From Anaerolineales bacterium (GTDB taxonomy: Bacteria > Chloroflexota > Anaerolineae > Anaerolineales > Villigracilaceae), in the NCBI GenBank assembly GCA_022865905.1, contig JALHUM010000246.1, positions 1 to 34,257 of the forward strand: a DNA stretch of 34,257 nt, read 5' to 3'. The position numbers were made by a program, and so were the translations under genes. The notes beneath the pieces are model-generated. The model did not search any database. It had not been told where the DNA came from and saw only the letters and a list, made by a program, of their open reading frames with translations. Shown in pieces: positions 5,606 through 30,492 of this stretch (position 1 is the first letter of the stretch; the number at the start of each line of letters is the position of its first letter).

Positions 5606-6454
5606 ATGTCCGCTTCCAATTTCTTTGCGCTGGCCCTCCAGGCCTACCGGGAACTCCAGCCTGAGCTTGCCTGCACTTGCGCAGGCCGTCTCGCCCCGGC
5701 GGGCTCCCGGCCCGAACGGGGTACAAATGACCAGGCGGGGCAAACTATCCACGCGCTAACCCTGCCCGCTCTCGCAGATGTGCTTGGGCAACTGGAGTCC
5801 CCGCCGCAGGGCGCGCTGATGCTCGGCGTGGCTTCGGACGGTCTGCCGGTGCTGTTGGATCTGTACGACCCGGCCCCCTGTCCGATCCTGGTGGTTGGAG
5901 ATGGCAACAGCGGCAAGACGGCGTTATTGCAACTGCTGGCGCGCACCGCTGATCTCCTTCAAGAGCCGGGCGATGTGCAGTTCGGTGTGGTGACCAATTT
6001 TCCAGACGAATGGAAAAGTATGGAAACCTCGGCTGCCAGCATGGGCATCTGGCCCGCCTATCACAGTTCAGCGGTGCAGTTCCTCCACGATACGGTGGCC
6101 TGGGCGGATGGCTCGACCCCGGGACGGCAGGTGCAGGTATTGCTGCTGGACGACCTGGCCTCGCTGGTGAGCACCAGTCACGAGACCCAGGAGGATTTGC
6201 GCTGGCTGCTGGTGCGCGGCCCGGAACGGCGTGTCTGGACGGTGGCGACGCTCAACGCGGTACGCGCCATGCGTCTGCGCCCCTGGCTGGGGTTGTTCCC
6301 CACGCACATTTTCGGCTTCATCCACCAACCCGCCCTGGCAGAGACGTTGACGGGAGATCCGCAGGCTGGCCTGGCGGACCTGGTGCCGGGTCTGCAATTC
6401 AGCCTGAAACAAGAAAGCGGCGGGCTCCAATTTTGGCTGCCGTCCCTTGATTGA
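5606..6454 (+). CDS. P-loop ATPase of unknown function
   Basis: Walker A 'VVGDGNSGKTALLQ', Walker B-like 'VQVLLLDDLASL'; N-terminal region carries repeat-derived sequence. Confidence 0.75.
   Translation: MSASNFFALALQAYRELQPELACTCAGRLAPAGSRPERGTNDQAGQTIHALTLPALADVLGQLESPPQGALMLGVASDGLPVLLDLYDPAPCPILVVGDGNSGKTALLQLLARTADLLQEPGDVQFGVVTNFPDEWKSMETSAASMGIWPAYHSSAVQFLHDTVAWADGSTPGRQVQVLLLDDLASLVSTSHETQEDLRWLLVRGPERRVWTVATLNAVRAMRLRPWLGLFPTHIFGFIHQPALAETLTGDPQAGLADLVPGLQFSLKQESGGLQFWLPSLD
5669..5724. repeat. Two fused repeat units lying in frame inside the P-loop ATPase gene
   Basis: GCCTGCACTTGCGCAGG identical to 531-547, followed by GGCCGTCTCGCCCCGGCGGGCT..CCCGGCCCGAACGGGGTAC, related to 621-668. 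Confidence 0.8.
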
Positions 6455-25951: not shown

Positions 25952-26009
25952 AAACAGTGAACCTATGCAGGTGGTGTTAAGAACTTTGATCGTCTCTTGC
26001 TGAGTGCGT

Positions 26010-26110
26010 GTCTTCGCGAAGCACACCCGAAGGGTGCCTGCTGGGGGAGGGTCTTCGCGACATTGTCCCCGAAGGGGAAGCACCCCCGGAGGGGCCCGAA
26101 CCTTCCCGGC
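26010..26110. repeat. Tandem REP-like palindromes upstream of lipoprotein A
   Basis: GTCTTCGCGAAGCACACCCGAAGGGTGC then GAGGGTCTTCGCGACATTGTCCCCGAAGGGGAAGCACCCCCGGAGGGGCCCG. Confidence 0.8.
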
Positions 26111-26207
26111 TTGCCCCCGCGAGTCTCCTATGATTTATTATGTGAATGGTACGTTCGGTCAGTAGGAAATATGAAAATGCTATACAAAACACTCACTGTA
26201 AGCGCGA
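26047..26207 (+). repeat. Direct repeat copy 1 (161 nt): REP + leader + first codons of lipoprotein
   Basis: Aligns at +1030 with 27077-27237 with two mismatches found by eye (26163 and 26189). Confidence 0.92.
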
Positions 26208-26998
26208 CAGCTGCGATGCTATTCTCTGGAGCCTGCACAAAGGCAACTGGCAGCACCACGACGCCGACAAACACGCCTCCTACAGTAACACAGATGTATA
26301 CTCCTTCAGATACGCCCACGTTCACGCCGAGTCCGACAGATACGCCGCTTCCTACGAATACTCCACATCCGACAAATACACCAATGCCAATAACTGTATC
26401 TCCTGGAGAGATTTATTATCTTTGGGGTCTGAGCCAATCTTCTGCTCCATACCTTGTTTGGGGTGCTCAATTAAGGGATACCATGAATGGTAGTTGTCAG
26501 GGATTTATTTGTGACGGAAAGGATTTACGTGAATATGATCCTGCTGTCTGGCATTTCTTAGGAAAAGGAGAGTACGGGCAAATGACTTTCACATTTGACC
26601 AGCCATTAGATACATTTGTTATAACTTATAGAGGCATAATGGGCTTTGATGCATTATCAGGAACAACGCCAGACGGAAAGGCAGTAGATTATGGGTTTTT
26701 GGCTGATGGAAGATTAACTACATCATATATGGATACATCCAATTTTAGAATGGAAACAATAGGTCACGCAGAGGATACTTTTTCGGCAGTCACTGTACCA
26801 TGCGGTATGATTGACCCGAATCCAAACGGAGACAACAGCTTCAACATGACTAATGGACCTGGTGGAATAATATTTAACTTTTTAGATAGGGCATGGGGTC
26901 AGGATACATATTCAACAAGGAAAGGATATGAATTAAATAGTCTTACTATTGTTTCCGCATCAGATAGTACTATCTCCTCAAATATGATGTGTCCTTAG
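26171..26998 (+). CDS. Lipoprotein A: signal peptide, Thr/Pro-rich linker, unknown extracellular domain
   Basis: MKMLYKTLTVSATAAMLFSGACTK; TPTNTPPTVTQMYTPSDTPTFTPSPTDTPLPTNTPHPTNTP linker; AT-rich remainder. Confidence 0.85.
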   Translation: MKMLYKTLTVSATAAMLFSGACTKATGSTTTPTNTPPTVTQMYTPSDTPTFTPSPTDTPLPTNTPHPTNTPMPITVSPGEIYYLWGLSQSSAPYLVWGAQLRDTMNGSCQGFICDGKDLREYDPAVWHFLGKGEYGQMTFTFDQPLDTFVITYRGIMGFDALSGTTPDGKAVDYGFLADGRLTTSYMDTSNFRMETIGHAEDTFSAVTVPCGMIDPNPNGDNSFNMTNGPGGIIFNFLDRAWGQDTYSTRKGYELNSLTIVSASDSTISSNMMCP

Positions 26999-27053: not shown

Positions 27054-27076
27054 ATTATTTTTTGTCTCTGCTGAGC

Positions 27077-27237
27077 GAGGGTCTTCGCGACATTGTCCCC
27101 GAAGGGGAAGCACCCCCGGAGGGGCCCGAACCTTCCCGGCTTGCCCCCGCGAGTCTCCTATGATTTATTATGTGAATGGTACGTTCGGTCAGGAGGAAAT
27201 ATGAAAATGCTATACAAACCACTCACTGTAAGCGCGA
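27077..27237 (+). repeat. Direct repeat copy 2 (161 nt)
   Basis: Near-identical to 26047-26207. Confidence 0.92.
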
Positions 27238-28262
27238 TTACTGCGATACTGCTCTCTTCATGCGCAAATGGGAATGGCAGCACCCCGACACCTACAAATA
27301 CGCCTCCGGCGATAACGCAGACATATACTCCCAGCCCCACAGCGACATACACGCCGAGTCTGACGGATACGCCTACCCCTGTGCTATATCAACTCTCCTT
27401 TCAAGCCTTCCACGATTATGACGGCAATGGCTCTCAAGAAGAGGGAGAGCTTAACCTAGAAGGGATTGTGAACATCACCTCTGCAGGAACATGCACAACA
27501 GGTGTAGATGGGAAGTGCGAGATAGAGGGGGTTCCTGCGGGGAGTCATAATGTTTCTGTTACTGATGATAGGAATGTCGAACAATATGAGAAGATGAGGT
27601 ATATATTGCCTTCTGTATCTGAAGTGAGAACGATAGCTCAGGGATTGAGCGTAAAGGTTGTTGGGAATACAGAAGTCAATGAATCATTAGGTCACGGATA
27701 TTTAACCTTACCATATTCTCCAGAGCTTACTATAAGACATATTACTTATGAAGATTTGAATGGGAATTACTTTGATAATCAAGTTAGAGATTGGAGAGGA
27801 GTAACCAAACTCCGTTTATATCATGATGGAAACGAGGATAGCGTTTATGATTGGCATCCAGGATGGGATATTGGGTGGGGAATCAATGCAGAAAAATGTA
27901 ATATGCCCGTTTATGCGGCTGCACCGGGTATAGTTTCTTCATTGGGACCAATAAATGAAAATGGAGGTGGATCAGTTAGATTAACACATCAAGATGATAG
28001 GATGACGGATTATGCACATTTAGGAGAGATAATAGTGTTTTTAACCCAACAAGTTGTAAGAGGACAATATTTAGGGAGCACATTCTGTGGTTGGAATGAA
28101 CCACATCTTCATTGGGAATTGATGGGTAAGACTGGTGAAGGAAGACTCCAATGGGATTACTGGAGAGTACCTATTTGTAGAGATCCATTAGATCCTAATT
28201 CATTAGATTTTTTAACAACTGCTTGTAATAATCAACCATATGCGGCAGAATACTTTAAATAA
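27201..28262 (+). CDS. Lipoprotein B: same leader and linker, C-terminal M23 (LytM-type) peptidase-like domain
   Basis: MKMLYKPLTVSAITAILLSSCAN; 'DYDGNGSQEEGE'; M23-like 'YDWHPGWDIGWGINAEKCNMPVYAAAPGIV' (HxxxD) and 'EPHLHWELM' (HxH). Confidence 0.85.
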   Translation: MKMLYKPLTVSAITAILLSSCANGNGSTPTPTNTPPAITQTYTPSPTATYTPSLTDTPTPVLYQLSFQAFHDYDGNGSQEEGELNLEGIVNITSAGTCTTGVDGKCEIEGVPAGSHNVSVTDDRNVEQYEKMRYILPSVSEVRTIAQGLSVKVVGNTEVNESLGHGYLTLPYSPELTIRHITYEDLNGNYFDNQVRDWRGVTKLRLYHDGNEDSVYDWHPGWDIGWGINAEKCNMPVYAAAPGIVSSLGPINENGGGSVRLTHQDDRMTDYAHLGEIIVFLTQQVVRGQYLGSTFCGWNEPHLHWELMGKTGEGRLQWDYWRVPICRDPLDPNSLDFLTTACNNQPYAAEYFK

Positions 28263-28899: not shown

Positions 28900-29396
28900 T
28901 TGACCAACGTACACACTTTTCGTGCCCCATCGAAAATCCCGGCGGAGGCGGAGCCTTCATCCGCATCCCCTTCGACGTGGAGCAGGCCTTCGGCAAGAAG
29001 CGCGTGCCGGTTAAGGCAACCATTGACGGCGAGCCTTACCGCGGCACACTGGCCGTTTCGCCCCGGCGAGCCGGGTCTCGCGGCCCGAACGGGGTGCGGA
29101 TGGGCGAGCCGTGTCATATTATGATTGTGCTGAAAGAAATCCGCGAGAAGATCGGCAAAACCTTCGACGACGAAGTGGAAGTGACGCTGGAGGAAGATAC
29201 CGAACCGCGCGTGGTCGAAGTCCCTCCGGATTTCCAGCAGGCGTTGGATCAAGACCCGGTTGCGAAAGCCGCCTTCCAGAAGATACCCTACACCCACCAG
29301 CGGGAATACGTGCGCGCCATACTGGAGGCAAAGCGTGAAGAAACCCGCCGCAGCCGGATCGCGAAGGCCATCGAGATGCTAAAGGTGAAAAAGTAA
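28900..29396 (+). CDS. DUF1905/YdeI-like protein with apparent 1-nt frameshift near 28927 and an in-frame repeat insertion
   Basis: Frame 28900: MTNVHTFRAP; frame 28977: IENPGGGGAFIRIPFDVEQAFGKKRVPVKATIDGEPYRGTLA..MGEPCHIMIVLKEIREKIGK. Confidence 0.8.
29051..29098. repeat. 48-nt GC-rich palindromic repeat in frame in the DUF1905 gene
   Basis: GGCCGTTTCGCCCCGGCGAGCCGGGTCTCGCGGCCCGAACGGGGTGCG, same length as 621-668; contains CCCGGC-GA-GCCGGG. Confidence 0.88.
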
Positions 29397-29400
29397 TTCC

Positions 29401-30492
29401 ATGTATCGCCTTATCCGCCCGTTCCTCTTCCGTCTCGATCCCGAGGCCGCCCACGCCCTCACGCTTTACGTTTTACGCTTTACGGGCGTACTGCCTCCCT
29501 TGAATTGGGCAATCAGCCAGTTCTTCAACGCACCTGAAAAACCAGTACAGGCCTTCGGGCTGACCTTCCGCAACCCGGTCGGTCTGGCAGCTGGCTACGA
29601 CAAGGACGCGGTCGCCGTGCGCGGACTGGCGGCCCTCGGTTTCAGCCACATCGAGGTCGGGACGGTTACGCCGCGTCCGCAGGCGGGAAATCCCAGGCCG
29701 CGCGTCTTCCGGCTGGTGGAGGATCAGGCGGTCATCAACCGCATGGGATTTCCGGGGAAAGGCGCGGAATATGTTGCAATGTCATTGCGAGGAGCGCAGC
29801 GACGAAGCAATCCCCGCGCTGGCGAGGAGATTGCTTCGCCTGCTTCGCAGGCTCGCAATGACACGATTATCGGCGTGAATCTTGGGAAAAACAAAGACAC
29901 GCCGTTGGAAAACGCCGCCGAAGATTACCTGTCGCTCATGCGTACTTTTGCTCCCCTGGCTGATTACCTTGCTATCAACATCAGCTCGCCCAACACGGTT
30001 GGCCTGCGCCGTCTTCAAGGACGCGAGATGCTGGAGACCTTGCTCGAGGCAATTGCAGAAGAGCGCATACGGCTCCCCTCTCCTTCCAGGAGAGGGGCTG
30101 GGGGTGAGGTCCGAGGTATGCCCATTTTAGTGAAACTTGCGCCAGATTTAGGTGATGCAGAATTAGATGACGCAGTCGGGGTTATCCTTAACAACAAAAT
30201 GGACGGCGTCATCGCTACGAATACCACGCTGGGACGCGAGGGGCTGCGATCAAAGCGCCGGGAAGAAACTGGCGGCTTGAGCGGCAGCCCGCTCCGGGTC
30301 CGCAGCGAAGCGGTGCTGCGCGTGGTAGTGAAAAGGATCGAAGGGAGAATCCCTGTTGTCAGTGTGGGTGGGATTATGACCCCAGAAGACGCCAAACGCC
30401 GCCTGGACATGGGGGCGGCGCTGGTTCAAGTCTATACCGGCCTGGTCTACGCCGGGCCGGGGATGGTGCAGAAAATCATACGGGCGGTTTGA
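29401..30492 (+). CDS. pyrD: Dihydroorotate dehydrogenase (quinone-type/class 2) carrying two in-frame repeat insertions
   Basis: 'FGLTFRNPVGLAAGYDKDAVAVRGLAALGFSHIEVGTVTPRPQAGNPRPRVFRL', 'GVNLGKNKDTPLE', 'INISSPNTVGLRRLQ', 'DGVIATNTT', 'VSVGGI'. Confidence 0.95.
   Translation: MYRLIRPFLFRLDPEAAHALTLYVLRFTGVLPPLNWAISQFFNAPEKPVQAFGLTFRNPVGLAAGYDKDAVAVRGLAALGFSHIEVGTVTPRPQAGNPRPRVFRLVEDQAVINRMGFPGKGAEYVAMSLRGAQRRSNPRAGEEIASPASQARNDTIIGVNLGKNKDTPLENAAEDYLSLMRTFAPLADYLAINISSPNTVGLRRLQGREMLETLLEAIAEERIRLPSPSRRGAGGEVRGMPILVKLAPDLGDAELDDAVGVILNNKMDGVIATNTTLGREGLRSKRREETGGLSGSPLRVRSEAVLRVVVKRIEGRIPVVSVGGIMTPEDAKRRLDMGAALVQVYTGLVYAGPGMVQKIIRAV
29780..29863. repeat. 84-nt palindromic repeat inside pyrD
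   Basis: TGTCATTGCGAG ... CTCGCAATGACA 12-bp terminal inverted repeat, inner GAAGCAATC/GATTGCTTC. Confidence 0.92.
30073..30111. repeat. Second repeat inside pyrD
   Basis: CCCCTCTCCT-tcc-AGGAGAGGGG hairpin followed by CTGGGGGTGAGGTC. Confidence 0.85.

Follow-up and report, generated by a model that had tools for sequence, protein, structure and literature searches.

In-frame palindromes are already known in bacteria, both as the Rickettsia palindromic elements (RPE) and as intragenic REPs. The RPE are short dispersed palindromes which lie in frame in unrelated metabolic genes (review PMC10969869; further example PMC5656822). The CGTC-tagged REPs are a second group of interest: their CGTC tag, at one end, is often TGTC and may be CCTC, their complementary stem starts with AT, head-to-head dimers dominate, intragenic units occur, and they have no dedicated transposase (PMC3733652). 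They are also defined by stems of 8–9 bp, loops of 4–5 nt and a CCA-like tail, and have been described in five phyla, Chloroflexi not among them (PMC3733652). The repeat described here, which is read in frame inside the pyrD gene of an uncultured Anaerolineales bacterium (Chloroflexota), is like the CGTC-tagged REPs in its TGTC tag, its AT-starting stem, its head-to-head pairing and the lack of a dedicated transposase. It is unlike them in that a pairing of only 5 bp (ATTGC/GCAAT) is followed by a hairpin arm of 11–45 nt, variable from unit to unit, and in that the tail is CYCC. Because this departs from the stem, loop and tail definition, and because that paper describes no CGTC-tagged REPs from Chloroflexi, the repeat is classified, on its sequence, as REP-like and is not filed as a member of that group.

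The pyrD gene and its palindromic doublet

The window, that is, the whole stretch of 34,257 nucleotides that was analyzed, carries pyrD on its forward strand at 29401..30492. The open reading frame encodes an essential enzyme of pyrimidine synthesis, a class-2 (quinone-dependent) dihydroorotate dehydrogenase of 363 amino acids (PF01180, E = 3.6e-76; NF003652, above its cut-off). Membership of this class is borne out by the family profile, the conserved residues, and the fold, as well as by the alignment to 1F76, and the protein keeps every column that is invariant across 35 PyrDs. The draft genome, which is 94.67% complete, yielded no other pyrD; the proviso of an earlier note, made from the letters of this DNA, that another intact copy could make this one dispensable does not apply.

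Two copies of a TGTC-tagged, REP-like palindrome, set head to head in a doublet of 84 bp, occupy 29780..29863 (forward strand) and are read in frame as residues ~127–154. The doublet is bounded by a perfect 12-bp terminal inverted repeat, whose left copy, TGTCATTGCGAG (29780..29791, forward), comprises the TGTC tag together with ATTGC, one half of the stem, and whose right copy, CTCGCAATGACA, lies at 29852..29863 on the reverse strand. Unit A (29780..29815, forward) has the form TGTC-ATTGC-GAG-arm-GAA-GCAAT-CCCC; unit B, which is inverted (29826..29863, reverse), has the form GGAG-ATTGC-TTCGCCTGCTTCGCAGGCTC-GCAAT-GACA. The two are joined by a linker of 10 nt, GCGCTGGCGA (29816..29825), with ends set by the unit matches. 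The coordinates, the 84-nt length, the perfect terminal repeat, and the in-frame reading had all been correctly recognized in the earlier note. Its description of the element as exactly 28 codons long is right for the length and can be refined as to phase. The element boundaries do not fall at whole-codon boundaries: the A of an ATG (Met) codon lies in the flank, and the final A of the element is part of the following Thr codon.

Copies of the unit, with the formula TGTC-ATTGC-GAG-[variable hairpin]-GAA-GCAAT-CYCC, are scattered across the genome, as counted by searches and in fetched stretches of it. TGTCATTGCGAG occurs 26 times per genome strand, versus 0 for the reversed control, a BLAST search of the element against the genome gives 48 matches, and the doublet folds as single-stranded DNA at z = −7.55 relative to dinucleotide shuffles; the element is therefore more than a chance arrangement. 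The TGTC tag is present in 37 of the 41 unit matches and the tails are of the CYCC type. The ATTGC...GCAAT stem, with its A-T start, is found in every unit, in part because the search pattern required it, and the arms of 30 distinct units pair with themselves better than shuffles do (combined p = 8e-11). Ten head-to-head doublets were counted in the fetched stretches. Relatives such as G064 contain dozens of doublets with differing arm pairs, a sign, though no proof, that units swap their arms as cassettes. Many other units are intergenic or lie 5′ of genes; the repeat is widespread and mostly intergenic, and the earlier note had likened the terminal motif to a widespread intergenic repeat. 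Several further units of the window's genome (G000) fall in open frames upstream of a recognized domain (RtcB, PBP, NeuB, Iso_dh, or G5) and are probably 5′ flanks, not coding sequence. A likeness of 29783–29885 to the SAH riboswitch (Rfam, 29.7 bits, below the cut-off of 37) is taken as fortuitous.

One unit is also read in frame in a DMSO/TMAO-reductase-like molybdopterin oxidoreductase of the same genome (L231:1–1974, contig C142 of G000). It forms residues 510–531, between the two domains of the protein and directly before DTYPLQ; the link at this place is much shorter in the solved homologues that were aligned. The presence of such a repeat in a housekeeping gene, which the earlier note had called striking, is real, and the adjective has to be softened in view of the clear precedents for in-frame palindromes.

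Other repeats were observed in the same material. A second palindromic repeat, CCTCTCCTTCCAGGAGAGGGGCTGGGGGTGAGG (30077..30109, forward), unrelated to the first, lies in frame in another loop of pyrD (LPSPSRRGAGGEVRG); similar repeats are found in this second loop in L026 and L085, from two other genera. A genome of the same genus (G015) contains an open reading frame with the peptide SLRGAERRSN...RND (L241:318–1205, reverse strand), which may not be a real gene since it belongs to no Pfam family. Elsewhere in the window, a 190-nt direct repeat with 95% identity (26038–26227 and 27068–27257) overlaps the starts of the neighbouring frames 25997–26998 and 27093–28262 and suggests a recent duplication, and a dispersed repeat around GGCCCGAACGGGGTGCG has copies in or near open frames at 616–668, 5701–5729, and 29046–29102.

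Loop replacement and the predicted protein

As had been claimed, the loop at the site of the element is short in other PyrD proteins, with ~25 residues in the outgroups, which lack the repeat. The loop of the window protein has 43 residues, versus ~23–28 in outgroups and most element-free sisters, and the optimal alignment of the protein with E. coli PyrD (1F76) contains a gap of 19 residues. Alignment with PyrD relatives confirms the extra loop segment and corrects its size, the net gain over the ~25-residue outgroup loops being ~18 residues and not 28. Since a loop of 43 residues includes 28 repeat codons, about 10 native residues are gone; the 28 repeat codons have taken the place of ~10 native ones, which is not a simple insertion. 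A carrier of a single unit (L031) has a loop of 25 residues, equal to the native length, and carrier loops span 25–61 aa, with peptide sequence and length varying freely between species.

The reading considered highly probable here is that a surface loop of PyrD, being tolerant, has captured selfish REP-like DNA time and again (or exchanged it locally), and that this DNA is translated as the end of a helix followed by a disordered loop. In the window, two head-to-head TGTC-tagged units would have replaced the tip of the helix-to-strand surface loop, so that the first repeat codons would lengthen an existing helix and the remainder would form the disordered part. In the alignment-based AlphaFold2 model (mean pLDDT 79; best structural match E. 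coli PyrD 1F76), the helix 122–134 enters the insert, residues 139–152 have pLDDT < 50, and the next strand comes after them; confidence is also low in some other parts of the model. According to this model the window PyrD likely folds, and the intact invariant columns predict that the enzyme probably still works with its insert. We infer both that the insert is translated and that the enzyme tolerates it. The missing native loop residues, unexplained by plain insertion, count against this reading.

The frame is open and free of stops in all carriers, despite their differing sequences and lengths. Four pyrD doublets have both ends complete; they measure 84, 78, 87, and 90 nt, all multiples of 3, versus only 2 of the 9 non-pyrD doublets in the fetched stretches of the window's genome. 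These observations bear on the idea that the protein lacks the segment because it is cut out of the RNA or bypassed by the ribosome. The ends of the element do form a stable stem, but an open frame in every carrier and the predominance of lengths not divisible by 3 among the remaining doublets make the idea very unlikely. The conservation of the frame in 13 genes and a strong hairpin predicted in the transcript are what could be expected if the inserted residues were adaptive, either as a new surface, as a membrane or partner contact, or through an mRNA hairpin that controls pyrD translation. This is decidedly improbable, given the free variation of the peptide described above, the very low model confidence of half of the insert, as expected of disorder, and the existence of close relatives without it. 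An assembly error or a dead gene could be suspected in a draft genome of 359 contigs with 5.17% contamination. Nonetheless, genomes that were assembled independently (L148, L149, L151, L155, L163, L167, and L171) also have repeats in this loop, and both the frame and the invariant columns are intact, so that this explanation is hardly credible. The misassembly that the earlier note had named as a possible refutation does not apply either, because the same junction is present in independently assembled genomes of other genera.

One codon register and its origins

The loop was compared in a sample of 110 PyrD genes of the family, 13 of which, from seven genera, carry the repeat as a doublet or as a single unit. 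Full or decayed doublets are found in L009, L010, L011, L012, L014, L016, L022, and L030 (genera g1, g7, g10, g11, g16, g17, and g26), those of L010, L011, L016, and L022 being decayed and recognized via partial identity; single units are found in L028, L031, L083, L105, and L112 (all g17). In all 13 carriers the conserved hydrophobic codon of the loop lies inside the repeat, as TTG or a one-step variant of it; in the window it is the repeat-supplied TTG (Leu) at 29785..29787 on the forward strand. A hydrophobic residue occupies this position in 110 of 110 loops (L 92, I 8, M 6, V 4). Just 5′ of the ATTGC of the register stands TGTC in the doublets and GGAG (or CGAG) in the single units, which means that two different repeat ends share one register. 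In addition, L026 and L103 have a different, CAGTTGTCAGTG-like repeat in the same loop and the same codon register. A junction pattern that fits full doublets only, searched with up to 3 mismatches in 397 genomes of the class so as to look beyond the family, gave matches in 24, among which only G000 and G009 correspond by place to the known pyrD site; the remaining matches are taken as chance, a reversed control having matched at a similar rate.

TTGC microhomology can explain the shared register, and so can selection that keeps the residue hydrophobic; both may have acted. The loop would tolerate repeat DNA provided that one hydrophobic residue stays, and the repeat supplies it through the TTG within ATTGC; a tolerant loop together with a repeat that brings the needed codon would account for repeated capture, in the same register and in related genera, of this and at least one other kind of repeat. 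More tentatively, and with less than even expectation that it will hold, the PyrD loop might be regarded as a standing landing site, in which at least two palindrome families keep capturing the same register and whose copies still exchange with the others of the genome.

The number of origins was approached with a tree built without the loop, the carrier groups having been named only after the loops had been seen. The AU test rejects a clade of the eight full carriers (p = 4.5e-5), of L012, L014, L016, and L022 (p = 9e-33), and of the five single-unit carriers (p = 1e-5). Clades of L009, L010, and L011 (p = 0.088) and of L014 and L016 (p = 0.09) are not rejected, and one origin shared by L009, L010, and L011 remains compatible with the test. 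Parsimony counts 12 changes between carriers and non-carriers, gain and loss not being told apart. Element-free relatives from several genera have a similar native loop, of the type L/M-S-x-x-x-x-RPRS-T/V-I, and this loop, common to the element-free sisters, argues that the element-free state is the original one. The window element is closest to copies of its own genome, with best local scores of 59, 50, and 44, versus 32 or less for any pyrD copy of the relatives. There has been more than one origin, or else exchange; the AU rejections, the native sister loops, and the own-genome affinity of the window copy argue for three captures or more, or for a smaller number combined with exchange.

A single ancient insertion in the common ancestor, followed by vertical inheritance, decay in some lineages, and loss in others, would agree with the register and right junction common to the clear carriers, with the arm and linker sequence that L014 and L016 have in common, with the near-identity of L028 and L083, and with the failure to reject a clade of L009, L010, and L011. 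It is nonetheless unlikely: the clade of eight is rejected, the native loop of the element-free relatives could hardly be restored after replacement, and the kinds of arm differ by lineage, the window copy resembling its own genome most. Few insertions followed by recombination, with pyrD loop alleles swapped between species and arms overwritten by gene conversion from genomic copies, is a genuine possibility, if on balance a doubtful one. In g17, the 90 bp 5′ of the loop cluster by loop type and against the gene tree (92% identity for L105–L112 and 96% for L136–L142, versus 84% for L112–L136), which hints weakly at exchange among species; L105 and L112 have the right junction AACGACATGATCCTTGGAGTT in common and different arms, and the closeness of the window copy to others of its genome would also fit. 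However, the flank signal, besides being weak, is not seen in g16, and exchange between genera is hard at ~70–80% pyrD identity.

Mobility and comparison with known palindromic systems

For repeated capture in a tolerant loop, the preferred reading, two routes may be considered: the repeat could be moved by a transposase supplied in trans, or it could enter when the template is switched at TTGC microhomology. No transposase was found adjoining the repeat, the six Y1_Tnp genes of the draft genome having no unit in the fetched stretches around them. Similarly, the target-site duplication that the earlier note had advised looking for is not clear in any of the ten doublets. These two points also weigh against the preferred reading. 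MITEs of DDE transposons have terminal inverted repeats, a target-site duplication, and an autonomous relative; the observations here are the terminal inverted repeat of the element and, in ten doublets, no clear target-site duplication.

With this locus the range of protein-coding palindromes, which covered Rickettsia and a few genomes rich in REPs, comes to include Chloroflexota. It also offers a replicated natural experiment, since one enzyme loop has been rewritten several times by repeat DNA and element-free sisters are available for comparison, which makes the cost or benefit of the captures measurable. For annotation, it is important to note that peptides of the SLRG...RND type within conserved proteins can be translated repeats. 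If the loop were indeed a standing landing site, selfish DNA would be a recurrent source of new protein segments. A search of open papers for the repeat DNA (a 10-mer) or for its typical peptide found no paper on the repeat. Two things appear to be new, as judged from these papers: that a TGTC-type repeat is part of coding sequence in Chloroflexota, and that a single codon of a housekeeping enzyme has been reused time and again in several lineages.

The resemblance to known systems is partial in each case. With REPINs the doublet has in common two inverted REP units, a short linker, and the potential to form a single hairpin (PMC3116915). Unlike the REPINs that accompany RAYT transposases (PMC3116915), its tag is TGTC and not GTAG, and the draft genome yielded no RAYT-like gene that has units beside it. 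The REPs of Xanthomonas recB are similar in that differing REPs occupy roughly the same place in a single gene of related species (PMC3733652); however, two species are involved there, and seven genera with a common codon register here. As with the RPE, genome-dispersed palindromes lie in frame inside genes, in this case pyrD and the molybdopterin oxidoreductase gene. Compared by description, the RPE measure ~150 bp and belong to Rickettsia, whereas the present unit, from Chloroflexota, measures ~36 nt and its doublet 84 nt. Unlike in the RPE, here one loop of one gene has been struck repeatedly across genera, with the loss of native residues.
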